64,000 nucleotides of DNA from Alcaligenaceae bacterium (GTDB lineage: Bacteria; Pseudomonadota; Gammaproteobacteria; Burkholderiales; Burkholderiaceae_B). Location of the stretch: positions 62,001 through 126,000 of the forward strand of contig JACCEO010000008.1 of NCBI GenBank assembly GCA_013416485.1, given 5' to 3'. Made by a program: the position numbers and the translations under genes. Numbering within the stretch: the stretch's first letter is position 1; every line of letters starts with the position of its first letter. Below are positions 4,882 through 28,166 of the stretch, one piece after another. The notes beneath the pieces are model-generated. The model was not told the origin of the DNA and searched no databases. It worked only from the letters and a program-made list of their open reading frames with translations.

Positions 4882-4890
4882 ACAGAGGGA

Positions 4891-6063: not shown

Positions 6064-6147
6064 TTAATCTCCCTTAGGTTTAAAGTACCTTACTGCAATT
6101 TACACATTTTTATTATCAGAATTAACGATAGTTATCACAAAAACAAA

Positions 6148-11256: not shown

Positions 11257-11326
11257 AGCACACTCCTAGTTATGAAGCTTGACTCTATACGGTGAGTGTG
11301 GGGCCGTCAACCCATTGAAATAGACA

Positions 11327-11363
11327 ACAAAAAACCCGTCATTCCAAATAGAATGCGGGTTTT
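11327..11363 (-). terminator. Intrinsic terminator after tRNA-Leu(GAG)
   Basis: On the minus strand, arms AAAACCCGCATTC and GAATGACGGGTTTT pair over 13 bp with one bulge around a 6-base loop and are followed by a run of six T. It lies 38 bases past the 3' end of tRNA-Leu(GAG) and so closes the tpiA-secG-tRNA-Leu transcription direction. Confidence 0.85.
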
Positions 11364-11400
11364 ATGCTGACTTAACCTAAGCAGGTTCAGAACAAATTTT

Positions 11401-11485
11401 TGGTGCCGACGGCGAGAATCGAACTCGCACAGCTTTCGCCACTACCCCCTCAAGATAGCGTGTCTACCAATTCCACCACGTCGGC
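11401..11485 (-). tRNA. tRNA-Leu (anticodon GAG)
   Basis: An 85-nt class II tRNA with encoded CCA. The acceptor arm is GCCGACG/CGTCGGC, the anticodon arm CTATC-TTGAGGG-GGTAG gives anticodon GAG, the variable arm is long, and the T-loop TTCGAAT is canonical. It sits 27 bp downstream of secG on the same strand, an arrangement known from related betaproteobacteria. Confidence 0.97.
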
Positions 11486-11512
11486 TTGCAAAGAGCGGTA
11501 TCTTAGCACAAA

Positions 11513-11974
11513 TTATTGCGCTGCCGGGGCCTCGGGTACTGCAGCAGGCGAATTTTGAGCTGGAGCAGTAGGCACGGCAGGTACAGCGGATTCGCTAGCG
11601 GCAGTATTTGGTGCTGCAGGTACTACGGTACCGGTTTCTGCACCTGGCACTGCGGGTACGGCATCGCCAGTTACTGAGGGAACTGGCGCAGGCTGAAAGC
11701 CTTGCATAATGCCACCATCAAGAATGGACGGACCTGGGTGGTGCGCCACATAGGCCAGACCTACTGTGGAAGTAAAAAAGATAATTGCAGCCCATTTAGT
11801 AGCACGCGACAGGAAGTTTGCGGCGCCTGTTGCACCAAACAAACTACCAGCCGAACCACCACCAAATGAAGAGCCCATGTCGGCGCCCTTACCCTGCTGC
11901 AACAATACCAGCACGATAACAGTTAGCGACGATATAACCTGAATTGACAACAGGACGGGGGACAACCATTGCAT
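11513..11974 (-). CDS. secG: Preprotein translocase subunit SecG
   Basis: Small inner-membrane subunit of the SecYEG channel. Residues 1-80 match SecG: one N-terminal helix (VLLSIQVISSLTVIVLVLLQQGKGADMG), the conserved GGGSAGSLFGATGAANFLSRAT loop, and a second helix. The 153-residue length is above the enteric 110 because of an alanine/proline-rich tail (about residues 85-153), a feature often seen in this bacterial group. It lies 16 bp after tpiA and before tRNA-Leu. Confidence 0.94.
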   Translation of the reverse strand: MQWLSPVLLSIQVISSLTVIVLVLLQQGKGADMGSSFGGGSAGSLFGATGAANFLSRATKWAAIIFFTSTVGLAYVAHHPGPSILDGGIMQGFQPAPVPSVTGDAVPAVPGAETGTVVPAAPNTAASESAVPAVPTAPAQNSPAAVPEAPAAQ

Positions 11975-11990
11975 GAAAGAGCTCCGAGGC

Positions 11991-12746
11991 CTAAGCGGCC
12001 GCTATACGTAAAAATTCTTCTGCCACCAGCGACGCACCACCAACCAGGGCACCGTTAATATCAGACATGGAAAACAAACTGGCTGCATTCGCTGCAGTAA
12101 CGCTGCCACCATACAAAATGCGGACCTGAGGAACACCTAACGCCACTAGGCTGGCACGTATGCTGGCATGAACTTCCTGGGCTTGCTGCGGCGTCGCGGT
12201 CTGGCCCGTACCTATAGCCCACACGGGCTCATAAGCGATCACCATTTTTGCCACTGCTTGTGCACCTAATGCCAATACCGGCTGCAGCTGTGCAGCAATA
12301 ACGGCCAAGGCCTGACCCGCATCGTGTTCCGACAAGGTTTCACCCACACAAACCACCGGAGTCAAACCAGCATCCAGCGCCGCCTGGGCTTTATCAGCCA
12401 CCAACTGGCTGGTTTCACCATGTTGACTACGCCGTTCCGAATGCCCTACCAATACCCAGGTAACACCAATATCGATCAGCATAGCCGCAGCGACTTCACC
12501 CGTATAGGCGCCGGCAGACTGGCTGCTGACATCCTGAGCGCCCAATGCAATACGCCCCGCAGGCAAGGCAGCAGCAGCCTGAGCCAAATAAGGAAACGGT
12601 ACACACACGACCAGTTCGCAAGCATCAACTGCGCTTACACCATCAACCAACCCAGCCAGCAATGTTGTATTGCTGACAAGGGTACCGTTCATTTTCCAGT
12701 TGCCTATAACCAGGCGCGTGTGGGTTTTCAAAGAACTCATGGCCAA
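11991..12746 (-). CDS. tpiA: Triosephosphate isomerase
   Basis: Glycolytic and gluconeogenic enzyme that interconverts dihydroxyacetone phosphate and glyceraldehyde 3-phosphate in the cytoplasm. At 251 residues it is normal length. The substrate-binding GNWKMNG is at residues 15-21, the catalytic histidine lies in VGHSERR and the catalytic glutamate in YEPVWAIGTG, whose IGTG begins flexible loop 6. The phosphate-binding YGGSV lies near the end. It is followed by secG after 16 bp. Confidence 0.97.
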   Translation of the reverse strand: MAMSSLKTHTRLVIGNWKMNGTLVSNTTLLAGLVDGVSAVDACELVVCVPFPYLAQAAAALPAGRIALGAQDVSSQSAGAYTGEVAAAMLIDIGVTWVLVGHSERRSQHGETSQLVADKAQAALDAGLTPVVCVGETLSEHDAGQALAVIAAQLQPVLALGAQAVAKMVIAYEPVWAIGTGQTATPQQAQEVHASIRASLVALGVPQVRILYGGSVTAANAASLFSMSDINGALVGGASLVAEEFLRIAAA

Positions 12747-12821
12747 GCCCGCCTAGCGGGCATAGAAAATCGAATAACCCGGTATTGTAGCGTGTTAGCG
12801 GCTTGGCCGGTAGATGTGTCC

Positions 12822-13802
12822 CTACATGGTTAGGATAATTTTACCAATCTGATCGCCAGCATCCATCATGGCATGAGCATCGCTAGCCTGAGCCATAGGG
12901 AAAGTCGCATGGATTATTGGGCGTATTGTGCCTGCGGCCAACAAAGGCCAAACGTGTTTTTTCAGCGAACGGGCAATATCCGCCTTGAAAGCAACAGGTC
13001 GAGGACGCAAGGTAGACCCCGTAATTTGCAAACGGCGCATGAAAATCTCACCGCAATCCACTGTGGCTTTAGCGCCACCCAACAGTGCAATAATCACGAT
13101 ACGGCCATCGTCAGCCAAACACCGAATATTGCGATTTATGTAATCGCCGGCCACCATGTCCAGCACCACATCGACACCCTTGCCGTTAGTGGCCGCCTTG
13201 ATTTCCTCGACGAAATCCTGGGTGCGGTAATTGATACCACGTACGGCGCCTAAGTCCTGCACTGCCTGTACGCGCTCATCATTGCCCACAGTGGCATATA
13301 CCGCATGCCCCATAGCCGTTGCCAATTGCACAGCCGTGGTCCCTATACCACTGGCCCCACCATGCACCAGCAAGGTCTCCTGGCCTGACAAACGGCCACG
13401 ATCAAACACATTGCTCCAGACTGTGAAGTAAGTTTCCGGCAAGCCTGCAGCCTCGATTTCGGTTAAGCCCTGGGGTATCGGCAAACACAAGCTAGCGTCA
13501 GCAACACAGTACTCAGCATAACCACCACCTGGCAGCAACGCACACACTTTGTCGCCTATGGAAAAACCACCAGCAGCAGCATCGCCACCTACAATTTCAC
13601 CCGCCACTTCCAAGCCAGGCAAATCGGATGCGCCGGGAGGTGCTGGATAAAACCCTTTACGTTGAAAAACATCAGGACGGTTGATGCCTGCAGCAGCGAC
13701 TTTAATCAGTACCTCGCCTGCCTTGGGTTCGGGCATAGGCCGATCGACCTGCACCAGGACCTCGGGACCACCAGGTTGGGAGATTTCTATGGCTTTCATC
13801 AA
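12822..13802 (-). CDS. NAD(P)H-quinone oxidoreductase (zinc-free MDR family)
   Basis: Cytoplasmic medium-chain reductase of 326 residues, close to the PIG3/Qor group. It starts MMKAIEISQPGGPEVL, has the family block AAGINRPDVFQRKG and the nucleotide-binding motif HGGASGIGTTAVQLA near residue 145-160. No structural-zinc cysteine cluster is visible, as expected for quinone reductases. The qor-tpiA-secG order is shared with Bordetella-type genomes. The preferred quinone is unknown. Confidence 0.9.
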   Translation of the reverse strand: MMKAIEISQPGGPEVLVQVDRPMPEPKAGEVLIKVAAAGINRPDVFQRKGFYPAPPGASDLPGLEVAGEIVGGDAAAGGFSIGDKVCALLPGGGYAEYCVADASLCLPIPQGLTEIEAAGLPETYFTVWSNVFDRGRLSGQETLLVHGGASGIGTTAVQLATAMGHAVYATVGNDERVQAVQDLGAVRGINYRTQDFVEEIKAATNGKGVDVVLDMVAGDYINRNIRCLADDGRIVIIALLGGAKATVDCGEIFMRRLQITGSTLRPRPVAFKADIARSLKKHVWPLLAAGTIRPIIHATFPMAQASDAHAMMDAGDQIGKIILTM

Positions 13803-13922
13803 CAGCTCCTTTGGTTATCAATAAAAGGGTATTATCGCCGTTGTGATGTTTTTTTGTAGAAACATCCTGGCAACTATCCACAAACAGCCTAATTTAAGCT
13901 AAACTAATTGGCTTCATACAGC

Positions 13923-14012
13923 GGAAGCGTGCCAGAGTGGTTGAATGGACTGGTCTTGAAAACCAGCGACGGGGTAACTCGTCCGTGAGTTCGAATCTCA
14001 CCGCTTCCGCCA
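13923..14012 (+). tRNA. tRNA-Ser (anticodon UGA)
   Basis: A 90-nt class II tRNA with encoded CCA. Acceptor GGAAGCG pairs with CGCTTCC, the anticodon arm CTGGT-CTTGAAA-ACCAG gives TGA, and the long variable arm and TTCGAAT loop are canonical. Its last 19 bases plus one more are repeated exactly at 20187-20206, so this gene looks like the attachment site of an integrated segment. Confidence 0.97.
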
Positions 14013-14013
14013 A
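13994..14013 (+). repeat. Putative attachment repeat (left), tRNA-Ser 3' end
   Basis: The 20-bp sequence AATCTCACCGCTTCCGCCAA covers the 3' end of tRNA-Ser(UGA) including CCA. An identical direct copy is at 20187-20206. The flanks of the two copies are unrelated. This is the pattern left by tyrosine-recombinase islands that use tRNA 3' ends; no integrase gene remains in between, so the mechanism is inferred. Confidence 0.75.
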
Positions 14014-14025
14014 AATTCCTAAAGC

Positions 14026-15405
14026 TTAATTTTTCTGCAGATAGTTGCGCATAAAGGCAACAAACTGTGGGCTGTCGGCATAGGCGACGTTAATACGCAA
14101 GGCAGGCTGATGGCGTCCACTTTCCTGGTCAGGAAGAAATAAAGAACCTGGCGCCAGGAAAATCTGCTCTTTGGCAGCAGCAGCGGCCAGTTTCAATTCA
14201 TCCTGGCCTGCACCCAACTCAGCCCATAGATAAAACCCGCCACCAGGGGCATAGGGTGTATTCAAACCCAAGCTTTCCATGGTACGCAAAGCATGCTGGG
14301 TAGCCCGTTCCACATGATTTTTCAGGCGACGCAAGTGTTTCAGATACTGGCCGGTGGCAATCAGTCCCAGAACGGTGCGCTCTACGAAGTCTGATGTAGT
14401 CACCAAAGTAAGCATCTTCAGGTCACAAAAAGCCGCCGTCAGAGCGGGGCTGGTCGCCAGATAGCCTACGCGTAGTCCTGCAGATAAAGTTTTAGAAAAC
14501 GTGCCTATATATATGACCCGCTCCAGTTGATCCAGCATCGCCAAGCGAGGGCTGTCTGTGGGCAGGATATCGGCAAAGGGATCGTTCTCGACGACGTAGA
14601 AGCCATATTGTGCTGCGGTTTTCAGAATGCGGTGGGCTACAGGCAAAGTCAGTGAGCCGCCTGTAGGATTGTGTGCCAGTGATTGGGTAAAGAATACTTT
14701 AGGCTTATATCTTGCGGCTTTTTCTTGCAGGTCGTCTATATCAGGGCCATTGGCCAGACGGCGTACACCGACCAGCTTTACATTCGAGAAACGCAATTTG
14801 CCAAATAGCGGGTAATACCCTGGGCTATCAACCAAGGCCACATCGCCGGGTTCCAGTAACTGACGCGCCACCATATCCAGGGCGTGATTGGCACCGTGGG
14901 TTAACAGCACCTGATCTGTGCTGGCCTGTATGCCGCGCTCGGCCAGCATCAGAGCAATACGTTTACGTAAGGGTTTCAGCCCCCAAGGATTGCCGTAGCC
15001 ATGACCTTGGGTGATGCCATCATCTATGTCAGGCAGGCTGGCGGCACGGTTCAGGTCAAACTTTTCCATCCATGCCGCAGGCGGTCTGCCATCGCCTACG
15101 CGCACGTTGTAGTGTTGCACCAGTTGTTCACGCAGCAAGGATACCGTGTCTATGGCTTGTGCTACATCACGTGAACGCTGAGGTGATGAAGCATAGCGGG
15201 TGACGGCTACGTAATAACCAGATCCTGGCCGGGCTTCCAGGTGACCCATGCCGACCAGCCTGTCGTAGGCATCAGCAACCGTGTTCTTGGAAACGCCATA
15301 TTCAGCAGCAGCGGCACGCACCGACAGCAGTCGTGTACCCGTGGATAACTGACCTGATTCTATGCGTGTGGCGATGGTGGAAACGATATGATTTATGCGG
15401 CTCAT
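14026..15405 (-). CDS. MocR-type regulator (GntR DNA-binding domain fused to aminotransferase fold)
   Basis: Transcription factor of 459 residues. Residues 1-70 form a GntR winged helix (VSTIATRIESGQLSTGTRLLSVRAAA ... VSKNTVADAYDRL); from about 110 onward it is a fold-type I aminotransferase domain with the PLP-lysine motif in TFSKTLSAGLRVGY. Such proteins use PLP and a ligand to control nearby genes. It is divergent from the TRAP transporter genes, with candidate operator repeats between them at 15441-15485. Its stop codon is only 14 bp from tRNA-Ser, just inside the putative island edge. Confidence 0.92.
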   Translation of the reverse strand: MSRINHIVSTIATRIESGQLSTGTRLLSVRAAAAEYGVSKNTVADAYDRLVGMGHLEARPGSGYYVAVTRYASSPQRSRDVAQAIDTVSLLREQLVQHYNVRVGDGRPPAAWMEKFDLNRAASLPDIDDGITQGHGYGNPWGLKPLRKRIALMLAERGIQASTDQVLLTHGANHALDMVARQLLEPGDVALVDSPGYYPLFGKLRFSNVKLVGVRRLANGPDIDDLQEKAARYKPKVFFTQSLAHNPTGGSLTLPVAHRILKTAAQYGFYVVENDPFADILPTDSPRLAMLDQLERVIYIGTFSKTLSAGLRVGYLATSPALTAAFCDLKMLTLVTTSDFVERTVLGLIATGQYLKHLRRLKNHVERATQHALRTMESLGLNTPYAPGGGFYLWAELGAGQDELKLAAAAAKEQIFLAPGSLFLPDQESGRHQPALRINVAYADSPQFVAFMRNYLQKN

Positions 15406-15440
15406 GGGGTTTATAGGATAGCTGTGCCTGTGATTTGCCT

Positions 15441-15485
15441 GGTACAGTTTAGGGGTTTTCTAAAAACTGTCCCTTGTATTGTCCC
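15441..15485. promoter_or_regulatory. Candidate MocR operator repeats
   Basis: Arms GGTACAGTTT (15441-15450) and AAACTGTCCC (15464-15473) form an inverted repeat matching at 9 of 10 positions with a 13-bp spacer. A second TGTCCC at 15480-15485 makes a direct repeat with the one at 15468-15473 at 12-bp spacing. They lie between the divergent MocR and TRAP genes, where MocR proteins usually bind. The binding is inferred, not shown. Confidence 0.45.
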
Positions 15486-15571
15486 ATATTCCTATCTACC
15501 ATCAAGTGCGTTGCGCCTTTAACCAGAATACAAAAGCGCGACCCAAATTAATTGACTACTTGGAGGAGTGT

Positions 15572-16609
15572 ATGACGATGACTAACCGCCGCTCGGTGCT
15601 TAAAGCTATGGGGTTGGGGGCTGCCGCAACGCTGGCGTATGCCGCACCTGTTCGCGCGCAGACTGTTGTTAACTGGCGTATGCAGGCATTATGGGATGGT
15701 GGCACCACTCCCCAATTGTTTGAAGAGCGCTTCGTAAAGCGTGTCGCTGAACTGACCGACAATGCCTTCCAGATAGAATTGTTTTCCGCCGGTCAACTGG
15801 TGCCTGCCAATCAGGCATTTGATGCCGTACGTGGCGGCGCTTTTCAGTTGATGAAAACCTTTGATGGCTACGAAGCCGGAAAAATTCCTGGCTTGGCTTT
15901 TACCAGCACCATCCCTTTTGGCTTCCCAGAAGCTGACCAATACGAAGCCTGGTTCTATGAATTAGGCGGCCTGGAACTGGCGCGTGAAGCCTATGCCCCA
16001 GCTGGCTTGTTCTACATTGCACCTACGGTGTACGGCCCTGAGCCCATACACTCTAAAGTGCCTTTGAAAACCATTGCCGACTTGAGCGGTAAAAAGGGCA
16101 GGTTTGTGGGGCTGGCATCTACCGTGATGGGTTCTTTGGGGGTGTCAGTAACACCTTTGCCCACGAACGAGGTGTACTCAGCACTGGACAAAGGGGTCAT
16201 AGACCTAGCCGACCGTGGTGACTTATCGGCCAACCTGGAAGCCGGTTTGGCCGAAGTGGCTAAGTACATCGTTATGCCTGGACCTCATCAACCAACCACA
16301 GCATCCAGTTACGTGGCTAACCGTGGTGCCTACGAAAAACTGCCTGCACACTTCAAAGCCGCTCTGGCTTCTGCAGCGCGTGAAACCTCTGCCGCATTAC
16401 GCCAGCATATTCTGGTCGCTGACGGAAAAGCGCTGGAAGAGTTCAAAGCCAAGGGCGTGGAAGTGACCAGTTTTTCCGCTGATGACGTGAATGAAGCACG
16501 TTTGAAGGTAATTGATGTCTGGAAGTCTGCTACCAAGAACCAGCCTAATGCCGTCAAGATCCTGGATAGCCAACTGGCCTTTATGAAGCAGCTGGGTCTG
16601 ATCGCCTGA
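15572..16609 (+). CDS. TRAP transporter solute-binding protein (DctP family)
   Basis: Periplasmic receptor of a tripartite ATP-independent transporter, 345 residues. The ATG at 15572 is chosen because of the GGAGGAG site just upstream. The N-terminus NRRSVLKAMG followed by a hydrophobic stretch and VRAQ is a twin-arginine-like signal, with cleavage near residue 30. The mature part begins VVNWRMQALWDGGTTPQ, typical of DctP receptors for carboxylates. Adjacent permease genes and HMG-CoA reductase suggest a C6 hydroxy-acid such as mevalonate as ligand; this is inference. Confidence 0.93.
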   Translation: MTMTNRRSVLKAMGLGAAATLAYAAPVRAQTVVNWRMQALWDGGTTPQLFEERFVKRVAELTDNAFQIELFSAGQLVPANQAFDAVRGGAFQLMKTFDGYEAGKIPGLAFTSTIPFGFPEADQYEAWFYELGGLELAREAYAPAGLFYIAPTVYGPEPIHSKVPLKTIADLSGKKGRFVGLASTVMGSLGVSVTPLPTNEVYSALDKGVIDLADRGDLSANLEAGLAEVAKYIVMPGPHQPTTASSYVANRGAYEKLPAHFKAALASAARETSAALRQHILVADGKALEEFKAKGVEVTSFSADDVNEARLKVIDVWKSATKNQPNAVKILDSQLAFMKQLGLIA

Positions 16610-16629
16610 TTCAGGCAATTCCCCTTAAA

Positions 16630-16657
16630 CGGGTGCTACTACGCTAGTAAGCACCCG
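16630..16657 (+). promoter_or_regulatory. Intercistronic hairpin between TRAP receptor and permease genes
   Basis: Arms CGGGTGCT and AGCACCCG pair over 8 bp around a 12-base loop, 20 bp after the receptor stop and 25 bp before the small-permease start. A short pyrimidine tract follows, not a full T-run. Such hairpins often stabilise the upstream message or partly terminate, giving more receptor than permease. Confidence 0.5.
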
Positions 16658-16682
16658 GCCTTTCTTTGAACGAAGAACGCTT

Positions 16683-17201
16683 ATGCCTACAGTCATACGT
16701 TGCTACGTTACCTGGATTACGCGGTGTAACTACCTGTTGTTCCTGGTGGCGGCAGCCCTGATGGTTATTATTGTGCCGGTGATGCTTTACGAGGTCACCA
16801 GCCGCTATGTATTTAACGCCCCTACCGTCTGGGGCATGGAATTGGCGCTGCTGCTGTTCGGCCCTTATTTTTTATTAGGTGGCCCCTATTTACTGCACAT
16901 CAAGGGGCACGTCAACCTGGACGTGGTGCGCCAGCGCTTGCCCCTGGCTCAGGGCAGGTGGCTGGATATGTTCAACCAGATCATCATTATGCTGTTTTGT
17001 GTGATCTTGTTTTATTACGCCTGGCCTCTGGCCGTGCAGGCGCTGGAGTTCCGTGAAACCTCGTTTTCGGCATGGAACCCGCCCATCTGGCCCTTTAAAT
17101 TTACGATTCCTTTGGCGGTAGTCCTGCTAGGCGCGCAAAGCCTGGCCGAGTTCCTGCGTATATTTTTTCGGGATCCTGACTATTACGGATCGCCGCTATG
17201 A
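16683..17201 (+). CDS. TRAP transporter small permease (DctQ family)
   Basis: Inner-membrane subunit of 172 residues with four hydrophobic helices, the normal DctQ topology. The conserved block YEVTSRYVFNAPTVWGMELALLLFG lies near residues 37-61. It joins the receptor and large permease genes in one plus-strand operon and overlaps the large permease by four bases (ATGA). Confidence 0.92.
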   Translation: MPTVIRCYVTWITRCNYLLFLVAAALMVIIVPVMLYEVTSRYVFNAPTVWGMELALLLFGPYFLLGGPYLLHIKGHVNLDVVRQRLPLAQGRWLDMFNQIIIMLFCVILFYYAWPLAVQALEFRETSFSAWNPPIWPFKFTIPLAVVLLGAQSLAEFLRIFFRDPDYYGSPL

Positions 17202-18514
17202 CACTATCACCTAACGCCATTCTTATCTTAATGTTTGGTGGGCTGACATTGCTCATGCTCACTGGCCTACCGATCGCCTTTGTGCTGGGCGGTTTGTCGC
17301 TATTGCTGACTGTATTCCTATGGAATGCCGATGCTGTCGTCATCATGGTATTGCAGATTTTCGATACCATGCGCTCGGAAGCCTTGCTGGGTATACCGCT
17401 GTACATACTGATGGCTGGTATCTTGCAACGCTCTGGTGTCATACAAGACTTGTATCGTGCGATGGAGCTCTGGTTCGGGCGCTTACGCGGCGGCTTAGCT
17501 ATCGGCACTGTGGTTATTTGTGTCGTCATGGCGGCCATGACAGGTGTAGTTGGCGCGGCCGTAACGGCTATGGCTGTTTTGGCCATGCCGGAAATGCTGA
17601 AGCGTGGCTATGACCCTAAGTTGGTGACTGGCACAATTTGCGCTTCGGGCACTTTAGGCATATTGATACCGCCGTCTGTGCTGACCATTGTGTATGCCGT
17701 AACCGCGCAAGTATCCATAGGCAAGATGCTGATTGCTGGACTGGTGCCAGGGTTGATACTGGCTAGCCTCTATATCTGCTACATCTTATATGTGGCTTAC
17801 ACCAAACCAGGCATGGTGCCAGCTTCCACGGCTGAGCGCGTCCCCATGTCGGTCAAGCTGAAAAGTCTGCAAGCTGTCATTTTGCCTAGTTTGCTGATCG
17901 TGATGATACTGGGATCTATTTTCCTGGGCATAGCAACCCCTACGGAAGCGGCGGCAGTGGGTGTACTGGGTGCGTTGATCGCTGGTTCCATCCGTAAAAG
18001 CCTTACATTTAAAGGGCTGGCAGCAGCATCGATAGAAACGTTAAAAGCCACGTCCATGATCCTATGGATCACCATAGGTGCTAAAGCTTATGTAGCAATT
18101 TTTACAGGACTTGGGGGAGCCAGCACTTTGATGGATTTCATCCAGAATCTGGATGTGCACCCCTATATGATCCTGGCCGCCATGATGCTGATACTAATCT
18201 TCCTGGGCACCGTCCTGGATGAAATCGGCATTATCTTGCTGACAGTACCTGTATTTCTACCCATAGTCAGGGTGCTAGGTTTTGACGAGATCTGGTTTGG
18301 CGTGTTGTATGCCATCACCATACAAACTGGCTACATCAGCCCACCCTTTGGCTACACCCTGTTTTATATCAAAGGGCCGCTACCACCCAGCATCAGCATG
18401 ACTACTGTTTACAAAGGCGTCACACCGTTCATGATGCTGCAAATCGTTGCCTTGCTGATTTGCGTAGCCTTCCCTGGTCTGGTGACCTGGCTGCCACGCT
18501 TGATGACCAACTGA
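17198..18514 (+). CDS. TRAP transporter large permease (DctM family)
   Basis: Main membrane translocation subunit of 438 residues with about twelve hydrophobic segments, the usual DctM size. It shows the family landmarks LLGIPLYILMAGILQRSGV, the GILIPPS motif near residue 151-158 (GTLGILIPPSVL) and GTVLDEIGIILLTVPVFLPI. Sodium-driven uptake is the family mechanism. It is followed 42 bp later by the HMG-CoA reductase gene on the same strand. Confidence 0.94.
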   Translation: MTLSPNAILILMFGGLTLLMLTGLPIAFVLGGLSLLLTVFLWNADAVVIMVLQIFDTMRSEALLGIPLYILMAGILQRSGVIQDLYRAMELWFGRLRGGLAIGTVVICVVMAAMTGVVGAAVTAMAVLAMPEMLKRGYDPKLVTGTICASGTLGILIPPSVLTIVYAVTAQVSIGKMLIAGLVPGLILASLYICYILYVAYTKPGMVPASTAERVPMSVKLKSLQAVILPSLLIVMILGSIFLGIATPTEAAAVGVLGALIAGSIRKSLTFKGLAAASIETLKATSMILWITIGAKAYVAIFTGLGGASTLMDFIQNLDVHPYMILAAMMLILIFLGTVLDEIGIILLTVPVFLPIVRVLGFDEIWFGVLYAITIQTGYISPPFGYTLFYIKGPLPPSISMTTVYKGVTPFMMLQIVALLICVAFPGLVTWLPRLMTN

Positions 18515-18556
18515 TAACTACTTTATTGAAATTTACCTTTGCTAGGATGACCTATT

Positions 18557-19831
18557 GTGACTGATTCAACTAAAACCTCTCGGATATCAGGCTTTCATAA
18601 ACTAAGTATCAGTGACCGCCTGGCGCGTGTGACTGAATTCGCTGGCCTGGACAGCGATGTGGTTGCACAGCTATCCAACTTGGGCAACCTGGACGGTGAA
18701 CTGGCTGACCGCCTGATAGAAAACGTAATTGGTACGATGAGCATACCTGTGGGTATTGCCACCAACATGAAAATCGACGGTCAGGATGTCTTAATTCCTA
18801 TGGCGACGGAAGAATCCTCGGTGGTGGCGGCTGTGTGTAATGCAGGCCGTCAATGCTACGATGATGGTGGTTTCATTACGTCCATGTCAGGTACGCTGAT
18901 GATTGCCCAGATTCAACTGGTGGATGTTACTAACCCAGCCAGCAGCCGTATCAGCATTCTGGAACGTAAAGACGAAATCAAAGATATCTGCGATGCCTGC
19001 GACCCTATACTGGTCAGCTTGGGTGGCGGTTTGCGTGACGTGGAAGTCCGTTTGCTGGAAACCGCCGAAGGCACCATGGTTATTACCCACCTGATCGTGG
19101 ATACTCGTGATGCTATGGGTGCGAATGCCGTGAACTCTATGGCGGAAAAACTGGCTCCCCATATTGAAGCTTGGACCGGTGGCCGTGTTTACTTACGCAT
19201 CTTGTCCAACCTAGCGGATAAGCGTTTGGCACGTGCCCGTGCTACTTGGAGCTGCGAGGCGATAGGTGGTCCAGATGTCCGTGACGGCATCATCAGTGCC
19301 TACGAGTTTGCTGCTGCTGACCCCTACCGTGCTGCCACGCATAACAAAGGCATCATGAATGGTATTTCAGCCGTAGTGCTGGCGACAGGTAACGATACCC
19401 GCGCAGTTGAAGCCGGTGCTCACGCGTTTGCGGCACAAAAAGGCTGGTATACCAGCCTGACTGACTGGGAAGTTACTGCCGAAGGCGACTTAAGTGGCAG
19501 CATAGAATTGCCTATGGCGGTGGGCCTGATCGGAGGTGCGACCAAACTGCACCCTACAGCACGTGCTTGTCTGAAGATACTGGGTGTATCTACTGCAGAT
19601 CAATTGGCACGCATGATAGCCGCTGTAGGCTTGGCACAGAACTTCTCAGCGCTTAAAGCCTTGGCAACTACGGGTGTGCAAAAAGGGCATATGTCCTTGC
19701 ACTCGCAGAATATTGCCATGATGGCAGGCGCTGTGGGTGACGAAATCGACCAGATCTCCAAGATACTGGTCGAAAAGGGCCAGGTCCGTTTGGACGTGGC
19801 CCAGGAAGAACTGAAGAAATTACGCGGGTAA
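18557..19831 (+). CDS. mvaA: Class II hydroxymethylglutaryl-CoA reductase, degradative
   Basis: Cytoplasmic enzyme of 424 residues that in class II bacteria oxidises mevalonate and CoA to HMG-CoA with NAD+. It aligns along its length with the Pseudomonas mevalonii enzyme: ENVIGT (55-60), ATEESS, HNKGIMNG (262-269), ATGND (276-280), GHMSLH (377-382). Counterparts of catalytic Glu83, Lys267, Asp283 and His381 are E86, K264, D280 and H378, and D149 matches the NAD-selecting Asp146. The start is GTG with an AGGATGA site upstream. With the TRAP genes it suggests mevalonate catabolism; no HMG-CoA lyase or thiolase is in the window. Confidence 0.93.
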   Translation: MTDSTKTSRISGFHKLSISDRLARVTEFAGLDSDVVAQLSNLGNLDGELADRLIENVIGTMSIPVGIATNMKIDGQDVLIPMATEESSVVAAVCNAGRQCYDDGGFITSMSGTLMIAQIQLVDVTNPASSRISILERKDEIKDICDACDPILVSLGGGLRDVEVRLLETAEGTMVITHLIVDTRDAMGANAVNSMAEKLAPHIEAWTGGRVYLRILSNLADKRLARARATWSCEAIGGPDVRDGIISAYEFAAADPYRAATHNKGIMNGISAVVLATGNDTRAVEAGAHAFAAQKGWYTSLTDWEVTAEGDLSGSIELPMAVGLIGGATKLHPTARACLKILGVSTADQLARMIAAVGLAQNFSALKALATTGVQKGHMSLHSQNIAMMAGAVGDEIDQISKILVEKGQVRLDVAQEELKKLRG

Positions 19832-20186
19832 TTATTTGCTGATGCTGAAAATCTGAAGCCATATAGGCTCGCGATATTATTGTTATCAAGCTTTTACTCT
19901 CAAACCTGACTCGCCTTCGAAACCTCGCATTCTTGCTATGCCCGCGAGGCTCGTCATGATACTGTCCAGAAGCTTAGGGGGCGAACGAGAGTTTGCCCCA
20001 TTTTTATATTCGCTAAAAGTACGCATAGGTACATGACTGTCAAGTTGGACTCAAGATAACTTGTACTATGCCTTCAGCATAGGTTGAAATCATCAGCTTG
20101 CATTATGTGAAGGAACTATGTCATAATACTTTGCTACAGTCCATACTAATCAATTGATTTTTTGGCTTTGTGCAAAGGTGGCTGGC

Positions 20187-20206
20187 AATCTCACCGCTTC
20201 CGCCAA
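20187..20206 (+). repeat. Putative attachment repeat (right), copy of tRNA-Ser 3' end
   Basis: Exact 20-bp direct copy of the tRNA-Ser(UGA) 3' end (13994-14013), outside any tRNA gene: the upstream sequence does not form a tRNA body. It marks the likely distal boundary of a 6.2-kb inserted segment. tRNA-Leu(UAA) begins 50 bp downstream. Confidence 0.75.
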
Positions 20207-20220
20207 GAAGTTACCCGTTA

Positions 20221-20241
20221 TAGTTTGCACCACGCAAACTA
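20221..20241. other. Short hairpin upstream of tRNA-Leu(UAA)
   Basis: Perfect 8-bp arms TAGTTTGC and GCAAACTA around a 5-base loop. It lies just past the right tRNA-Ser repeat; if the segment 14014-20206 is an insertion, this hairpin originally followed tRNA-Ser and could be its old terminator, although a T-run is lacking. Confidence 0.35.
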
Positions 20242-20255
20242 CAATGTATTTCCCC

Positions 20256-20341
20256 GCACCCATGGCGGAATAGGTAGACGCAAGAGACTTAAAATCTCTC
20301 GGCCACTGGCCGTCCCGGTTCGATTCCGGGTGGGTGCACCA
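20256..20341 (+). tRNA. tRNA-Leu (anticodon UAA)
   Basis: An 86-nt class II tRNA with encoded CCA. Acceptor GCACCC pairs with GGGTGC, the anticodon arm AGAGA-CTTAAAA-TCTCT gives TAA, with a long variable arm and canonical TTCGATT loop. It ends 22 bp before the DUF3108 gene. Confidence 0.96.
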
Positions 20342-20363
20342 CTACAATGTGGTTGTAAATACT

Positions 20364-21137
20364 ATGATATTCCAACTACTTTCCCCGCTAAGCACAGTTT
20401 TTCTTACGCTGTGCCCGCAATCCTTGCGCAAACCCATAGCGCGAACATGTGTTCTAGTCACTGCTGGGCTGCTTAGCTTACATGTAGCACAAGCCCAAAC
20501 CCTAGATTACGTAGATGCCAGCTTTTCGGTGGAATACAACGACAAGCGGACCCAGGCCGAAAATCACTTAAAAATTCAACGAGATCACGACCAGTACCAG
20601 ATCCATTTCGACTTGGATCACTGGCTGCTGTCATCAAAACAAAAAGCCACTTTTGACATGAAGCAATGCCATGTTCAACCCATGTCATATGCTGCCACGA
20701 ATAAACAACCCTTTAAAGACGAAAAACACCAAACTATTGCGTTTGATTGGGTCGATAAAAAAGCCATATTCAACAGCGAAAACGAAGAGAAAACGTTCGA
20801 CCTAGATCCGCCTTTATATGACCCTTTAAGTTTCTTTTTTGAAGCCCGCTGTGAACTAATAGCTGGTAAAAAAGACTTTATCTACCCTTTAATTTATAAA
20901 GGTAACAAAAGAACCCACCACTACAAGGTGATAGGCAATGACATGGTTCAAACTGGCCAGGGGCAGGTTGAAGCCTTGGTCGTCGAACGCGTAAGAAGTA
21001 GCACCACCCGTAAGACACGGCTGTATGTTGCCCCTAGCCTTGATTACTTACTGGTCAAATTTGAACATCAAGAAAATCGTGTGGTAAAGATTTCAGCTAC
21101 TTTGCAACATATGGATTACCGACTGTCTAATCGTTAA
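20364..21137 (+). CDS. DUF3108 domain-containing exported protein
   Basis: Uncharacterised protein of 257 residues. The ATG at 20364 (MIFQLLSP) is preferred; an in-frame ATG ten codons earlier lies inside the tRNA gene. The N-terminus has a basic/hydrophobic segment ending LSLHVAQA-QTL, a likely signal peptide with cleavage near residue 45. The mature part is beta-rich with the family pattern YxxSFSVEYN and a DPLSFFFEAR block near the middle, as in DUF3108 proteins presumed periplasmic or outer-membrane associated. No function is established. Confidence 0.8.
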   Translation: MIFQLLSPLSTVFLTLCPQSLRKPIARTCVLVTAGLLSLHVAQAQTLDYVDASFSVEYNDKRTQAENHLKIQRDHDQYQIHFDLDHWLLSSKQKATFDMKQCHVQPMSYAATNKQPFKDEKHQTIAFDWVDKKAIFNSENEEKTFDLDPPLYDPLSFFFEARCELIAGKKDFIYPLIYKGNKRTHHYKVIGNDMVQTGQGQVEALVVERVRSSTTRKTRLYVAPSLDYLLVKFEHQENRVVKISATLQHMDYRLSNR

Positions 21138-21172
21138 GCACACAACATGACTACCTTATGCGAACTTTCCGC

Positions 21173-21901
21173 TTAAGCTACTTTGGGCAATTCCTGCTTT
21201 GTGTCCGAAGACTGGCTCCAGCGCTGCATAATGGAAGTAATGTAAACCGTAAAGATCGGCAAGGTTGTCATTCCAATTACCGCAAGCACTGCGGTTGACA
21301 CCTTCCCTACAGCGGTAACAGCAATAATGTTAGAGCCCACCGTAGTTACCGTCATTGAAGCCCACCACAACACGTCGTAATAGCTTTTTATCTGCTCGTT
21401 CACCCCTGCCTCGAACACATAAAAGATCAGCGTCTGAAAATAAATCAAGGCAAAGAACAGCACAATATAAGAAATAAACAAGCTAGTAATGCTATTACGA
21501 ATCACCAAACGACTTAGCACAATTAAGGCGGCGCCCCCCCGCAATACCGGTATAAATCGTAGCAGGTAAGTCATCTCGCCCGAGAAGCTGATTGAAAACA
21601 TCTTGGATAAATAGACATAGGGAATCGACAGAAAAATAACGATGAAGTACCGCCAAAAGAATCGTTTTTTATTCTGTGATAGAAAAAGCATGACGATAAA
21701 ATCCAGCAAAAAATAGCCGCAAATCCAGAACTGTATCGTCAAGTAAATAGAGCTATCCTCATCTTCTGATGACAGCTCCCCCAAGAACGTTTCCATCGAA
21801 ATACAAATGATCAGCACCACCGTCAGAATGATGGTTAGTGCGTTCATTGCTTTCTCTAGCTCACTTAAATTCTCAGCTTTATCGTTTAGATGTAATGTCA
21901 T
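21173..21901 (-). CDS. Six-helix ion channel with non-canonical selectivity filter
   Basis: Inner-membrane protein of 242 residues with an N-terminal voltage-sensor-like bundle (helices at about 21-40, 55-75, 82-100, 112-135) and an S5-pore-S6 module (about 138-225). The pore block WWASMTVTTVGSN (179-191) is plainly that of a potassium-type channel, but the YGD after TVG is replaced by SN, so ion preference is uncertain. The putative S4 has few basic residues. Its start overlaps the amidohydrolase stop by four bases (ATGA), so both are probably translated together. AT-rich compared with neighbours. Confidence 0.82.
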   Translation of the reverse strand: MTLHLNDKAENLSELEKAMNALTIILTVVLIICISMETFLGELSSEDEDSSIYLTIQFWICGYFLLDFIVMLFLSQNKKRFFWRYFIVIFLSIPYVYLSKMFSISFSGEMTYLLRFIPVLRGGAALIVLSRLVIRNSITSLFISYIVLFFALIYFQTLIFYVFEAGVNEQIKSYYDVLWWASMTVTTVGSNIIAVTAVGKVSTAVLAVIGMTTLPIFTVYITSIMQRWSQSSDTKQELPKVA

Positions 21902-23391
21902 AGCGCGGAAAGTGTGCTTTTGTATATCTTGCCGTCTTTCATGATCAAACGCAGATTGGTCTCTGGGTCGGTCAGGAAATCAAGATTTACGGTAGGATCG
22001 CCATCGGCCACCAAGATATCAGCCAGTGAACCAGGAGCAATAGTTCCCAGCCCGCCTTCGTATGGATTACGTAAGCCAGACATCATTAATAGTTCGCCGT
22101 TCTGGCCTGTGGCCATACGCAAAAGATCCAGCGGCTGATAAAAGCGCGTCAGTTTGGCCAACATGCGCCCATGATTTGGCAGGTTTTGCGGGGTGAACAA
22201 GATGTCGGTTCCCCAGGCAGTCTGGATATTGAATTTTTGGGCCATCTCGTAGGCTTTGACAGTACCTTGAGCTACTCGCAATTGATTCGCCCTAGCTGCT
22301 GGTTCGGCTAGTTTGTTCGAGTCCTCATCGGCCAGGAAAGGCTGCAAGCTCCACCATATACCCTTGTCCGCCATCATGCGAACGACCTCTTCATCGGCTA
22401 GTTGCCCATGCTCGATAGACCTCACACCAGCCCGAACCGCACGCTCTATACCTTTGGCGGTATACACATGCACCATGACATAGGTACCCCAATCACTTGC
22501 TGCCGCAACGCCAGCTCGTAATTCCGCTTCGGTGAACTGCAAACTATCCAGGGGATCATAGGGTGAGGCCACACCACCGCCTGCCATTAGCTTAATCTGT
22601 GACGCGCCTAGCATTAGCTCTTCACGTGCGCGACGCAATACCTCGGATTCACCATCGGCAATCGATGAAACACCTGCACGCATGGTGTGAGTAATGTCGC
22701 CATCAGCACGCGGGATCTCGGAGCGCATACGGAAATCCCCATGACCCGACGTCTGCGTAATCATGGCACCCGACGGATAGATACGAGGACCGTGAACCAG
22801 ACCTTCATCGATAGCGCGTTTCAATGCAAAGCTGGGGCCACCCGCATCACGAGTGGTAGTAAAGCCGCGCATCAAGGTGCGTTGAGCTTCGTTAGCCGCC
22901 ACTAAATGAATATAAGGGACATCTGCTGTCATGGCTTGCATTTGCGTCAAACCGCACAAGGTCGAATGCCAATGTGCATCGATCAAACCCGGCATAACCA
23001 GCCGCCCGCCACAATCAATGATTTCCACGTCTCCTGGTGCCTCGCCTGCCGCCGGTAAGTCCACGACCTTATTACCTTCTATCCGTACATTCCTACCCTG
23101 CGTCACTGCACTTGTAATACCGTCGAATAAACGCAGGTTCGTCAACAATATAGGACGTGTGGATGTCTTGGGTTGTTGCGCAAAAGCACTATCTGACTTG
23201 AACCCCGTAAAAGGCAGGACCGCAGCCTCCATGCCACCTAAAGACATACGATGCATTAAGTCGGTGGATACGCGCCGATGAAACGACCGGACCACGGGGC
23301 TGGCACATTTGCAACCGCAAGTCGCCGAATGTATATGCCTGAAACGCATATAACGTTGAGACTGACCACCGCTTACATTGAGTTGTTGCAT
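21898..23391 (-). CDS. Exported amidohydrolase (binuclear metal, imidazolonepropionase/prolidase-like)
   Basis: Metal hydrolase of 497 residues from the amidohydrolase superfamily. Likely metal ligands: HxH at H140/H142 (DAHWH), lysine K267 in IKLMAGGG as carbamylated bridge, H308, H328 and D396 (WGTD). Residues 1-75 form an unusual leader with CGCKC at 25-29, the pair RR at 39-40 and a hydrophobic stretch ending SAFA-QQ, which reads as a twin-arginine export signal. The substrate (dipeptide, lactone or cyclic amide) cannot be told. It is translationally coupled to the ion channel and divergent from ytcA-mdtNOP. Confidence 0.84.
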   Translation of the reverse strand: MQQLNVSGGQSQRYMRFRHIHSATCGCKCASPVVRSFHRRVSTDLMHRMSLGGMEAAVLPFTGFKSDSAFAQQPKTSTRPILLTNLRLFDGITSAVTQGRNVRIEGNKVVDLPAAGEAPGDVEIIDCGGRLVMPGLIDAHWHSTLCGLTQMQAMTADVPYIHLVAANEAQRTLMRGFTTTRDAGGPSFALKRAIDEGLVHGPRIYPSGAMITQTSGHGDFRMRSEIPRADGDITHTMRAGVSSIADGESEVLRRAREELMLGASQIKLMAGGGVASPYDPLDSLQFTEAELRAGVAAASDWGTYVMVHVYTAKGIERAVRAGVRSIEHGQLADEEVVRMMADKGIWWSLQPFLADEDSNKLAEPAARANQLRVAQGTVKAYEMAQKFNIQTAWGTDILFTPQNLPNHGRMLAKLTRFYQPLDLLRMATGQNGELLMMSGLRNPYEGGLGTIAPGSLADILVADGDPTVNLDFLTDPETNLRLIMKDGKIYKSTLSAL

Positions 23392-23520
23392 ATTGTTCCT
23401 ATTTTTAAGAGTGTGCTGTGCGCAATATACGGTAAATAAAATGTTACATTGACGCCTACCCCACCAACCCTACCAAAAGAGCCTTACTTTTATAGGCTCG
23501 CCACCACAAGGTTTTTAATC

Positions 23521-23778
23521 ATGCCACGTATTGTTACGTCATGGTTGGTTGCAATCATACTTTCAGGATGCACAAACGCACCGTCCGTATATGCGTTCGG
23601 GTCATACTTTCCTTCGTGGCTGCTTTGCGCTGTTATAGGCATACTTGGTACGATTTTAGTACGCGTAATTTTTATCCGTCTGGGGCTAGATAATGCAATG
23701 CCGCTCCGTCTTCTGGTTTACGTGTGCATAGCACTAATCATTTCCATCAGCACGTCGCTGGCTTTCTTCGCCACCTGA
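23521..23778 (+). CDS. ytcA: YtcA-family lipoprotein
   Basis: Small membrane lipoprotein of 85 residues. The ATG at 23521 is chosen because it follows AAGG and directly begins the signal peptide; the lipobox is LSGC (cysteine at residue 18), followed by two hydrophobic helices. In Escherichia coli the homologue precedes mdtN in the mdtNOP efflux operon, and the same order is seen here, three bases before the HlyD-family gene. Its role in the pump is unknown. Confidence 0.82.
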   Translation: MPRIVTSWLVAIILSGCTNAPSVYAFGSYFPSWLLCAVIGILGTILVRVIFIRLGLDNAMPLRLLVYVCIALIISISTSLAFFAT

Positions 23779-23781
23779 ACC

Positions 23782-24831
23782 ATGAACCACTCCACACAAC
23801 CACAAAGCAACAAACGGCTTTTGACTCGTGTCATTGCAACCCTTACCATCGTGGGCGCCATTGCAATGATCGTGCTGTATCAATGGATGTCCTCTCCGCT
23901 ATCGGAAGACGCCATGTTACAAGCCGATGTCGTTCATATCAGCACCCCCGTACCGGGCCGTGTCGAAAAATTCTATGTCACCGACAATGGCAGGGTAAAA
24001 CGCGGTGATCTGCTGTTTACCCTGGATCCTACGGTGTACCGTCTGCGCGTAGAACAAGCCGACGCCGAACTCAAAGCGGCACAAGCGGCCCTAAGCGCGA
24101 AACAACGGCAGATCAATGCTGAACACTCCAATGTCGCAATCGCCAACGAACAAGTCGAACGAGCACTTTCAAATCTGAGCTTGACCGAAAAAACGCTAGC
24201 ACGGCTAGTACCACTGGGTAAGAAAGGTTATGTCACTACCCAGCAAGTCGATGATGCACGAACCTTACATCGCGATGCACAAGTCAGTCTAAAACAAGCG
24301 CAAGCACAGGCCGATGCTGCAGTGAGCTTGGTCGGCACATTAGAAGCTGCCGAAGCAGTGGTTCAGGTCAGCCACAGCGCTTTGGCCATCGCCCAGCGCG
24401 CGCTTGCCGACACCCAAGTACACGCACCTCATGACGGGCTGGTGGTGGGTTTGTCAGCCTCATCGGGTGAATATGTCGCTCCTGATCAATCACTATTCAC
24501 GCTGATAAATACCGAACAATGGTATGCCACAGCCTTCTTTCGCGAAACAGAACTTGCCCAGGTACAGCCTGGCGCTTGCGCGCTAGTCTATGCCCTTGCC
24601 AATCCCTCGGTAGCGATCAAGGGAACCGTCGACAGCATAGGCTGGGGGGTAGGCTCAACTGACCTGATCAAACTGCCTAGGACCTTACCCATCGTACAGA
24701 AATCCCTTAACTGGGTACGAGTGGCTCAACGTTTTCCCGTTAAGGTGCGCATTGAAGATGCACCAGAAAATCTGCTGCGCATCGGTGCATCCGCAGTTGT
24801 AGTCGTACAGCCGCATGGCAAAAACTGCTAA
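23782..24831 (+). CDS. mdtN: HlyD-family membrane-fusion protein, MdtN-like
   Basis: Periplasmic adaptor of a tripartite efflux pump, 349 residues. One N-terminal membrane helix (about 14-33), a split lipoyl/barrel-sandwich domain (VVHISTPVPGRVEKFYVTDNGRVKRGDLLF and VHAPHDGLVVGLSASSGEYV), and between them a helical hairpin of about residues 90-200 rich in A, Q and E. It overlaps the next gene by 17 bp and belongs to the ytcA-mdtN-mdtO-mdtP unit. E. coli MdtNOP has been linked to resistance to sulfa drugs and other compounds; the substrate here is open. Confidence 0.9.
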   Translation: MNHSTQPQSNKRLLTRVIATLTIVGAIAMIVLYQWMSSPLSEDAMLQADVVHISTPVPGRVEKFYVTDNGRVKRGDLLFTLDPTVYRLRVEQADAELKAAQAALSAKQRQINAEHSNVAIANEQVERALSNLSLTEKTLARLVPLGKKGYVTTQQVDDARTLHRDAQVSLKQAQAQADAAVSLVGTLEAAEAVVQVSHSALAIAQRALADTQVHAPHDGLVVGLSASSGEYVAPDQSLFTLINTEQWYATAFFRETELAQVQPGACALVYALANPSVAIKGTVDSIGWGVGSTDLIKLPRTLPIVQKSLNWVRVAQRFPVKVRIEDAPENLLRIGASAVVVVQPHGKNC

Positions 24832-26608: not shown

Positions 26609-28155
26609 CTACACTGGAACGCATGCCCACCCAACCTCGTCCAGCCCAACGGGTTAGGTCCCTTGCTATAGCAATGTGTATTGCCCTGTCAGGTTGCGCA
26701 ACCCACAGCCTGACCCAGGCACCAGCCTCACCAAGTGCACCGTGGCAACCCGGACACGCAGACGCTACCTCGTCCGCAAGCAAGCCAAATGCTCTTGATA
26801 CCGGCACCGAATTCACAATACCTGCCATCCACGAAGCATCAATTTTGCCTCCGGCACCCATTATTGATAGCGAACAGCCATATAGCCTACCCGCGCTGAT
26901 TGACATCGCCCAGCGTGAAAATCCCGACACGCGCCTGGCATGGAACCGTGCACGGCAAGCAGCCCTGGCAATCGGTGTCGCCGAAGCCACGTTCTTGCCT
27001 ATGCTGTCAGCCAATGTGATTAGCGGTTGGCAAAAGACCCACACACCGCTTCCTTTGCTTCCTGGCGACCGTAGCATCGATACCGAACTACATGGCGTCG
27101 TGCCGGCGCTGGCACTGGAATGGCTGATTTTCGATTTCGGACAGCGCAGAGCCATTGTTGAAGGCATTCAGCATATGTCCTATGCAGCCAATGTGCTATT
27201 CAATGGCACCCACCAAAAAATCATTCACGACGTCACTGAGGCATATTACCAATACGGTGCGGCACGCTATCAGGTAAGCATTGCGACACAAGCGCTGAAA
27301 AATAGCCACCAGGTTGCCGACGCGGTCAAGCAACGCCACAATGCCGGCCTTGCCACTGTGGTCGAAACCGCCCTGGCCAGCCAACAAGTTGCTCAAGCCA
27401 AATTACGTCGGGTCAATTCTGAAGGTGTGGAACAGATTAGCTATCAGGCCGTTCTACGAGCGGTGGGCCTACCGCCTTCCACACGTATCACAATTAGTAA
27501 TCCACCAGAACACGCACTGCCAGATAGCAATTCCGCAGTAACCGACGAAGCCATACAGATGGCGCTTTCCCAGCGCCCCGATGTACTCGCCAGCTATGCC
27601 GCCATGAAAGCGGCCACCGCTGGTATTGCCGCTGCCGAAGCCGAGTTCATGCCCAAGGTGTATTTAGGCGCCGTAGCTGCACACAACCGTACAGATTTCC
27701 AGGTACGTGGCTTGCCCAACATACGCCAGCAAACTGGATCAACCAGCGTACTGCTTGGCGTCACGATACCGCTATTCGATGGTGGGTTGCGCTCGGCACG
27801 CTTGCGAGACGCCCAGATCGAAGCGGCCAAGACTTCCGATACTTTCCAGAAAATACAAATGGACGCCATGCGAGAAATTATCGCTCAGTCCAATCTGTTA
27901 CGTACGGCACTGGCCAGCCATCAGGCGGCATCCGAACTCGTTAAGACAGCAGAAACAACGTACGATGCAGCGCTAGAAGCCTATGGTCATGGGGTTGGTA
28001 CCCTGACAGCAGTCACCATTGCTGTTACAGCGCTACTAGATGCCCAACAAGCCCATATGGATGCACGGACGGTGTCTCAGACAGCGGCAGCGAACCTAGC
28101 ATTTGTAATGGGTGCTATGACCTCATCACGCGAAAGCTGGATCAACGCTTTGTAA
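26605..28155 (+). CDS. mdtP: Outer-membrane efflux lipoprotein, MdtP-like (TolC/OEP family)
   Basis: Outer-membrane channel of 516 residues. It has a lipoprotein signal with lipobox LSGC (cysteine about residue 31), a long Pro/Ser-rich spacer to about residue 85, and two outer-membrane-factor repeats (ALIDIAQRENPDTRLAWNRARQAAL and the second half near residue 320). The start ATG overlaps the mdtO stop by four bases. It completes the tripartite pump. The longer spacer and lipid anchor are usual in NodT/MdtP-type channels. Confidence 0.9.
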   Translation: MTTLERMPTQPRPAQRVRSLAIAMCIALSGCATHSLTQAPASPSAPWQPGHADATSSASKPNALDTGTEFTIPAIHEASILPPAPIIDSEQPYSLPALIDIAQRENPDTRLAWNRARQAALAIGVAEATFLPMLSANVISGWQKTHTPLPLLPGDRSIDTELHGVVPALALEWLIFDFGQRRAIVEGIQHMSYAANVLFNGTHQKIIHDVTEAYYQYGAARYQVSIATQALKNSHQVADAVKQRHNAGLATVVETALASQQVAQAKLRRVNSEGVEQISYQAVLRAVGLPPSTRITISNPPEHALPDSNSAVTDEAIQMALSQRPDVLASYAAMKAATAGIAAAEAEFMPKVYLGAVAAHNRTDFQVRGLPNIRQQTGSTSVLLGVTIPLFDGGLRSARLRDAQIEAAKTSDTFQKIQMDAMREIIAQSNLLRTALASHQAASELVKTAETTYDAALEAYGHGVGTLTAVTIAVTALLDAQQAHMDARTVSQTAAANLAFVMGAMTSSRESWINAL

Positions 28156-28166
28156 TTGTGCACGGT

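Follow-up and report, generated by a model that had tools for sequence, protein, structure and literature searches.

A probable 6.2-kb genomic island with a putative mevalonate-use cargo at the tRNA-Ser(UGA) gene of an Alcaligenaceae bacterium

Through in silico analysis of a 64,000-nucleotide stretch of the genome of an Alcaligenaceae bacterium (assembly GCA_013416485.1, contig JACCEO010000008.1, positions 62,001 to 126,000 of the forward strand), referred to below as the window, positions 14014–20206 have been recognised, with good confidence, as a 6.2-kb genomic island inserted at the tRNA-Ser(UGA) gene, most likely by a tyrosine recombinase, and carrying a cargo probably for the use of mevalonate. 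This reading is built on the following observations: (i) an exact 20-bp repeat of the tRNA 3' end; (ii) an empty site in a related genome, G001; (iii) an older state in which tRNA-Ser(UGA) and tRNA-Leu(UAA) form an adjacent pair; (iv) cargo genes with open reading frames; (v) no recognisable integrase in the insert.

The repeated core, AATCTCACCGCTTCCGCCAA, is present in two exact copies (Table 1) whose starts are 6193 bp apart. No further match was found in the window with up to three mismatches allowed, 0 copies are expected from shuffled window sequence (n = 100), and the entire assembly (48 contigs, 2.78 Mb, listed as 99.99% complete) contains 2 copies at up to two mismatches. Nineteen of the 20 core bases belong to tRNA-Ser(UGA), from the T-loop to the CCA end, and the final A is the base directly after the tRNA. 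The right copy lies outside every tRNA gene called by ARAGORN, and sequence identity around the two copies breaks off sharply at both sides. The far side of the insert is marked by a direct repeat of the tRNA 3' end, as in tRNA-targeted islands. The first-pass annotation of this DNA, made from the sequence alone, had claimed that the tRNA 3' end recurs exactly at 20187–20206, outside any tRNA gene and between unrelated flanks, and the mismatch searches, the ARAGORN calls and the abrupt end of identity bear this out. It had also placed the end of the regulator gene 14 bp from the tRNA; the closeness is real, and the correct figure is 13 bases from the tRNA to the MocR stop codon.

The empty site is seen in G001, a member of the same genus. 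In this genome (locus L033) tRNA-Ser(UGA) at 3069–3158 and tRNA-Leu(UAA) at 3205–3290 lie on the same contig, 46 bp apart. Positions 471–3159 of the locus align with window positions 11322–14013 at 85% identity and positions 3140–3291 with 20187–20342 at 93% identity, the island being missing between them, and the two aligned G001 ranges overlap by 20 bases, which are the core. The quinone oxidoreductase beside the tRNA is 93% identical to that of the window, and no match to 3-hydroxy-3-methylglutaryl-coenzyme A (HMG-CoA) reductase was found in G001, one of the 69 genomes out of 81 without one. The comparison with relatives that the earlier annotation had proposed is therefore positive for an empty-site allele.

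The empty, adjacent tRNA pair looks like the ancestral state. The comparison sets contain one genome per species, and the tRNA survey took in the loci, of up to 3.1 kb each, of the 30 top-ranking tRNA matches from the relatives set, one of them being that of the window itself; 22 of the other 29 are family members. tRNA-Leu(UAA) was called 8–200 bp downstream of tRNA-Ser(UGA) in 12 of these 22 family loci, namely in G001 and in 11 loci from outside the genus, which argues that the adjacent pair is older and the state of the window derived. In a thirteenth family locus (L014) the pair looks adjacent by eye, tRNA-Leu not having been called. This ancestral pair and the G001 empty site support the earlier proposal that the MocR, tripartite ATP-independent periplasmic (TRAP) transporter and HMG-CoA reductase genes entered as one unit.

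Nine family genomes were extended downstream of tRNA-Ser(UGA). The pair is 1.9, 2.4 and 4.5 kb apart in three of them, and no tRNA-Leu(UAA) was called within the stretch examined in the other six. None of the nine has an 18-nt repeat of the tRNA-Ser 3' end downstream, and no integrase was found there by queries from seven of the nine integrase loci of the window genome. Loci L056, L061 and L068, from three family genomes, have 1.9–4.5 kb between tRNA-Ser(UGA) and tRNA-Leu(UAA) with neither a core repeat nor an integrase match. The inserts between the two tRNA genes in G042, G009 and G010 were considered as islands of the same kind and set aside, the longest copy of the last 40 bases of the tRNA being at most 9 nt. 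At the level of the 19-bp core, 145 of the 268 family genomes hold a copy, and only the window genome holds two on one contig. Four further genomes with two cores each (G189, G266, G296 and G298) are not read as islands, since each of their eight copies is a complete tRNA gene and the two in a genome lie on separate contigs.

The insert consists of five genes, assigned through Pfam and NCBIfam, with all frames open: a MocR-type regulator on the minus strand, followed on the plus strand by DctP, DctQ, DctM and HMG-CoA reductase (Table 1). For the regulator, MocR-like NCBIfam models were matched, none above its cut-off among the matches listed. The nearest solved chain of DctP is 2zzv, followed by fusion constructs of the lactate-binding protein TTHA0766 (7e9y, 8zmz), which makes a hydroxy acid substrate plausible. 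The best solved relative of the reductase is 1qax, with which it has THNKGIMNG, ATGND, GHM and the paired E of ATEES in common; these hold the catalytic residues. The sequence of 1qax is also that of 4i4b. An extract of PMC12292504 gives 4i4b as the Pseudomonas mevalonii enzyme. The G+C content of the five insert genes (0.51–0.54) falls beside that of eight of nine neighbouring host genes (0.51–0.55), the ninth, for a DUF3108 protein, having 0.43. In third-position G+C, DctQ (0.68) and DctM (0.59) exceed all nine of these host genes (0.45–0.54), which is a weak sign only.

Table 1. Position of the island, its genes and the bordering tRNA genes in the window.
Feature	Position	Strand	Remarks
tRNA-Ser(UGA)	13923..14012	+	ARAGORN; insertion target, still a complete gene; the same gene lies beside tRNA-Leu(UAA) in G001 and other family genomes
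Left core copy (attL)	13994..14013	+	20-bp exact repeat; T-loop to CCA plus one base
MocR/GntR-type pyridoxal phosphate (PLP)-dependent regulator, 459 amino acids (aa)	14026..15405	-	PF00392 and PF00155; divergent to the transport-catabolic operon
DctP, TRAP substrate-binding protein	15572..16609	+	PF03480; NF037995 above cut-off
DctQ, TRAP small permease	16683..17201	+	PF04290
DctM, TRAP large permease	17198..18514	+	PF06808, TIGR00786
Class II degradative HMG-CoA reductase (mvaA type)	18557..19831	+	TIGR00532, 480 bits against a cut-off of 260
Non-coding right end of the island, 355 bp	19832..20186	.	Open reading frames (ORFs) wholly inside are at most 46 aa
Right core copy (attR), taken as the displaced original tRNA 3' end	20187..20206	+	Exact repeat; the G001 alignment restarts at 20187; host DNA then leads to tRNA-Leu
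tRNA-Leu(UAA)	20256..20341	+	ARAGORN; ancestral neighbour of tRNA-Ser(UGA)

The cassette is likely to serve mevalonate catabolism, because an HMG-CoA lyase (three matches, two above the cut-off) and a gene for a CoA-transferase subunit of the scoA/pcaI family are encoded elsewhere in the host genome. The pair of features expected of a mevalonate cassette, a degradative class II HMG-CoA reductase and an available HMG-CoA lyase, is found here. In the predicted route, DctPQM probably imports mevalonate, the reductase would work in the oxidative direction, from mevalonate to HMG-CoA, and the host lyase, probably together with the CoA-transferase, would yield acetyl-CoA and acetoacetate. The transport-catabolic operon is probably controlled by MocR.

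The same cargo is known from other genomes. Reductase matches were obtained in 12 of the 81 genomes, the window's own included, and G012, G002 and G044 possess complete MocR–DctP–DctQ–DctM–reductase loci in the same order, with 58–80% identity per protein. Among the best 80 of 585 relatives in the scan of named genomes, which were examined as loci, all five genes occur in this order in seven: Bordetella genomosp. 7, Allopusillimonas ginsengisoli, two Acidovorax, a Methylocystaceae metagenome-assembled genome, Marinobacter lutaoensis and Thalassospira alkalitolerans. Comamonas jiangduensis makes an eighth, in which all five are present but the contig stops within the reductase gene; two further loci lack a match to MocR only, and in some other reductase loci of this set an HMG-CoA lyase gene adjoins the reductase. 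No tRNA was called within the stretch examined in any of the 11 full cassette loci (the three coded and the eight named ones). Related DNA is present on 28 plasmid records; among the 20 listed, those of Tistrella, Nitratireductor and Ruegeria pomeroyi have annotations for all five genes in the matched region. In a tree built from DctP, DctM and the reductase (LG+G4, 14 loci), a split with a support of 79 separates the window and Bordetella genomosp. 7 from the other loci, and under midpoint rooting Allopusillimonas, G002, G044 and G012 come next. A donor within the host's own family, taken as the Alcaligenaceae, is plausible.

In Comamonas jiangduensis (locus L213) about 2 kb separate the cassette from a tyrosine integrase (PF00589 and PF13356), and this interval holds two ORFs that, as judged by eye, resemble HipB and HipA. 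A 49-bp stretch next to this integrase matches, base for base, the 3' half of a complete tRNA-Thr(CGT) found in another part of the genome, 48 of its bases lying inside the tRNA. ARAGORN called no complete tRNA in the locus and Rfam, at E of up to 1, did not report the half as a tRNA, so that its assignment rests on exact identity with the complete gene. The stretch may be the attachment (att) site of an element carrying the cassette, and the arrangement indicates that the same cargo can occur beside an integrase and a tRNA fragment. In this stretch, which spans positions 1915–6820 of the locus with cassette, integrase, ORFs and tRNA half, the integrase has an arm-binding domain, and a short motif near it recurs, by eye, just after the complete tRNA-Thr on another contig.

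The claim of the first-pass annotation that no integrase lies between the repeats holds: the ORF list, the Pfam and NCBIfam assignments and a six-frame scan agree. No relaxase or conjugation gene is present among the five insert genes. The six-frame Pfam scan of 19832–20186 returned nothing up to a limit of E 10, at which the HMMER filters discard most matches above about 0.1, and nothing related to this segment at the DNA level was found in the 267 other family genomes or in phage records. In the right intergenic region Rfam reported tRNA-Leu alone above the gathering score, and the single-strand fold has a z-score of -1.25. An integrase or excisionase remnant in this region was considered and rejected, none having been detected by the six-frame Pfam, phage-record and family-DNA searches.

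Integrases were also examined outside the insert. Nine PF00589 matches lie in the window genome outside the window, of which at least two look like XerC/D by eye. In viral contigs the scan found at least 120 stretches with the 20-bp core. Among the 120 listed, the core is inside a complete tRNA in 109 and not in 11; in three of these 11 it lies 40 bases or less from the end of the stretch, and four of the remaining eight (L085, L165, L172 and L183) have a tyrosine integrase ORF within about 0.7 kb. Integrases beside this target therefore exist. No relative of DctM was found in the viral contigs. The viral integrases L085, L090 and L128 are at most 31% identical to the integrases of the window genome, and the candidate of a resident helper element with the same core was rejected, none being present in the window genome at up to two mismatches; together these results do not support a resident helper.

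According to the preferred explanation, the island most likely arose when a circular DNA that bore a 20-bp copy of the tRNA-Ser(UGA) 3' end was linked to the tRNA gene of the host by a tyrosine recombinase. The insertion would keep the tRNA whole and move its original 3' end to position 20187, and the integrase would have come from outside the insert or been lost without trace. The type of recombinase, the circular intermediate and the external or lost integrase are what we infer from the arrangement.

Several points weigh against this explanation. Neither an integrase nor an excisionase, nor a remnant of one, was detected in the insert, as judged from its five genes, the ORF list, Pfam and NCBIfam. 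Many phage-type integrases need arm sites, and the 12 bases from the core to the MocR stop codon leave little room for them. The eight partial cores listed in viral contigs that lie away from an end of the stretch keep at least 29 bases of the tRNA 3' end, as against 19 here. The relatives set and the family set each contain one other genome of the genus only, G001. The overall base composition of the insert is like that of the host, so composition gives little independent sign of arrival. Concerning the cargo, mevalonate as the TRAP substrate and the oxidative direction of the reductase are predicted from family and context only.

The preferred explanation has two forms, which between them account for the whole of its probability. 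In the first, the insert is the remnant of a larger integrase-bearing island at tRNA-Ser(UGA), from which the integrase and other genes were deleted while the useful cassette was kept. This form is given a little less than even confidence: the Comamonas cassette with its nearby integrase, two HipAB-like ORFs and att-like tRNA-Thr half speaks for it, and tyrosine integrases stand beside this tRNA core in viral contigs, but neither in the left 12 bases nor in the right 355 bp was any fragment of an integrase or other mobile gene detected, and the loss must have been clean on both sides with both cores staying exact. In the second form the cassette is non-autonomous, never had its own integrase and was integrated in trans by that of another element. 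This is possible and is put forward tentatively. The ends are tight around one complete operon, nine PF00589 matches lie in the genome outside the window, and extracts of PMC7771536 and PMC4119200 describe tRNA-inserted cassettes ended by tRNA repeats, the additive flexible genomic islands (fGIs). Against it, no other element carrying this core at up to two mismatches was found in the genome, the genome's own integrases show low identity to those of L085, L090 and L128, and the 267 other family genomes yielded no further unit that shares this right end. The more specific proposal, that a complete regulator–importer–enzyme operon moves without a mobility gene of its own and is integrated in trans at the 20-bp tRNA-Ser(UGA) 3' end by the recombinase of a helper, must be regarded as doubtful.

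Outside the preferred explanation, the cassette could have been captured through 20-bp microhomology, by transformation or from a circular fragment, with no site-specific recombinase involved. The missing integrase and the shortness of the identity agree with such an event, which is nevertheless improbable: the tRNA 3' end from the T-loop is a classical integrase target, the breakpoint lies exactly there, and the tRNA was kept whole. Finally, a cassette older than the split between the window genome and G001, deleted by G001 between the repeats, would leave the same empty site, but it is a very improbable history given the adjacent tRNA pair in 12 of the 22 family loci, all but one of which come from other genera, and the restriction of two cores on one contig to the window genome among the 268 of the family. 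A gain in the ancestor of the genus, followed by loss in G001 alone, would still be conceivable.

Other variable segments lie in the neighbourhood. Right after tRNA-Leu(UAA), window positions 20343–29071 are absent from the G001 region and form a second variable segment, with genes for a DUF3108 protein, an ion channel, an amidohydrolase and an efflux-like set (HlyD, FUSC and outer-membrane components); in G001 its place is taken by roughly 1 kb that includes a HigB toxin gene. The possibility of another island at tRNA-Leu(UAA) was considered and rejected, no repeat of its 3' end of 12 nt or more being present in the window. Conversely, G001 has an extra 6.2 kb (L033, 8959–15188), absent from the window and situated between the bases matching 33758 and 33829, whose ORFs look by eye like haem uptake genes. 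On the contig of the window, tRNA-Gly(GCC) is followed about 0.4 kb downstream by the ORF of a tyrosine integrase (locus L062, G000:C46:151051-152420), and no repeat of the tRNA-Gly(GCC) 3' end of 12 nt or more was found within the 13 kb read.

The island is a very clean natural example of the gain of a catabolic trait in one step, as both ends, the empty site and sister cargo loci are visible. The cassette supplies the uptake system and the first enzyme, the downstream enzymes being encoded elsewhere in the host genome. If movement in trans is true, small operons could spread without mobility genes, and island finders keyed to integrases or to odd base composition could miss them. A helper-driven cassette, if that is indeed what it is, would count as a metabolic hitcher of integrative elements that occurs beyond the marine and freshwater lineages from which extracts of the cited papers describe tRNA-ended additive cassettes.

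Compared with known systems, the insert shares its target, direct repeat and preserved tRNA with the integrase-bearing islands, integrative and conjugative elements and prophages found at tRNA 3' ends; unlike these, it has no integrase, transfer, relaxase or phage genes. The mvaA gene of Pseudomonas mevalonii is a gene of mevalonate catabolism, and its product and the reductase of the window are both degradative HMG-CoA reductases. The Bordetella, Allopusillimonas, Acidovorax and Marinobacter cassettes, among others, have the same MocR–DctPQM–reductase order. Unlike some other reductase loci, where the lyase gene adjoins the reductase, the window cassette does not include the HMG-CoA lyase gene, which sits elsewhere in the host genome. 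In the literature searches, the titles and abstract openings of the matches listed pointed to no description of mevalonate genes within genomic islands or of TRAP systems for mevalonate, nor to a mevalonate-use cargo in an island of the present kind. Tycheposons also represent a tRNA-linked insertion of metabolic cargo; according to an extract of PMC10872708 they have a tRNA at the border and the tyrosine recombinase xerD, whereas no recombinase was found in the window insert. An extract of a review of helper-dependent elements (PMC11389934) includes integrase-less integron cassette arrays mobilised in trans.

The closest likeness is to the additive fGIs of Alteromonas, 'Ca. Actinomarinales' and 'Ca. 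Methylopumilus', which, in the extracts of PMC4119200, PMC7771536 and PMC10872708, are inserted at tRNA genes, ended by tRNA repeats and loaded with metabolic cargo. The island that Alteromonas australica has next to tRNA-Leu, with a repeat of 52 nt, carries methanol/ethanol dehydrogenase and pqq genes (PMC4119200, in extract), and in Methylopumilus (fGI-2) the final 20 nt of tRNA-Lys recur as repeats ahead of the islands (PMC10872708, likewise). In view of these tRNA-repeat-ended metabolic cassettes, the earlier remark that so compact a metabolic cargo is unusual was somewhat overstated. The window island, a cassette ended by a tRNA-fragment repeat and present or absent between relatives (the window genome and G001), fits this known kind. 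As far as the extracts of these papers go, it differs from the described additive fGIs in being a single cassette and not an array, in belonging to a proteobacterium of another family, and in its predicted mevalonate-use cargo.

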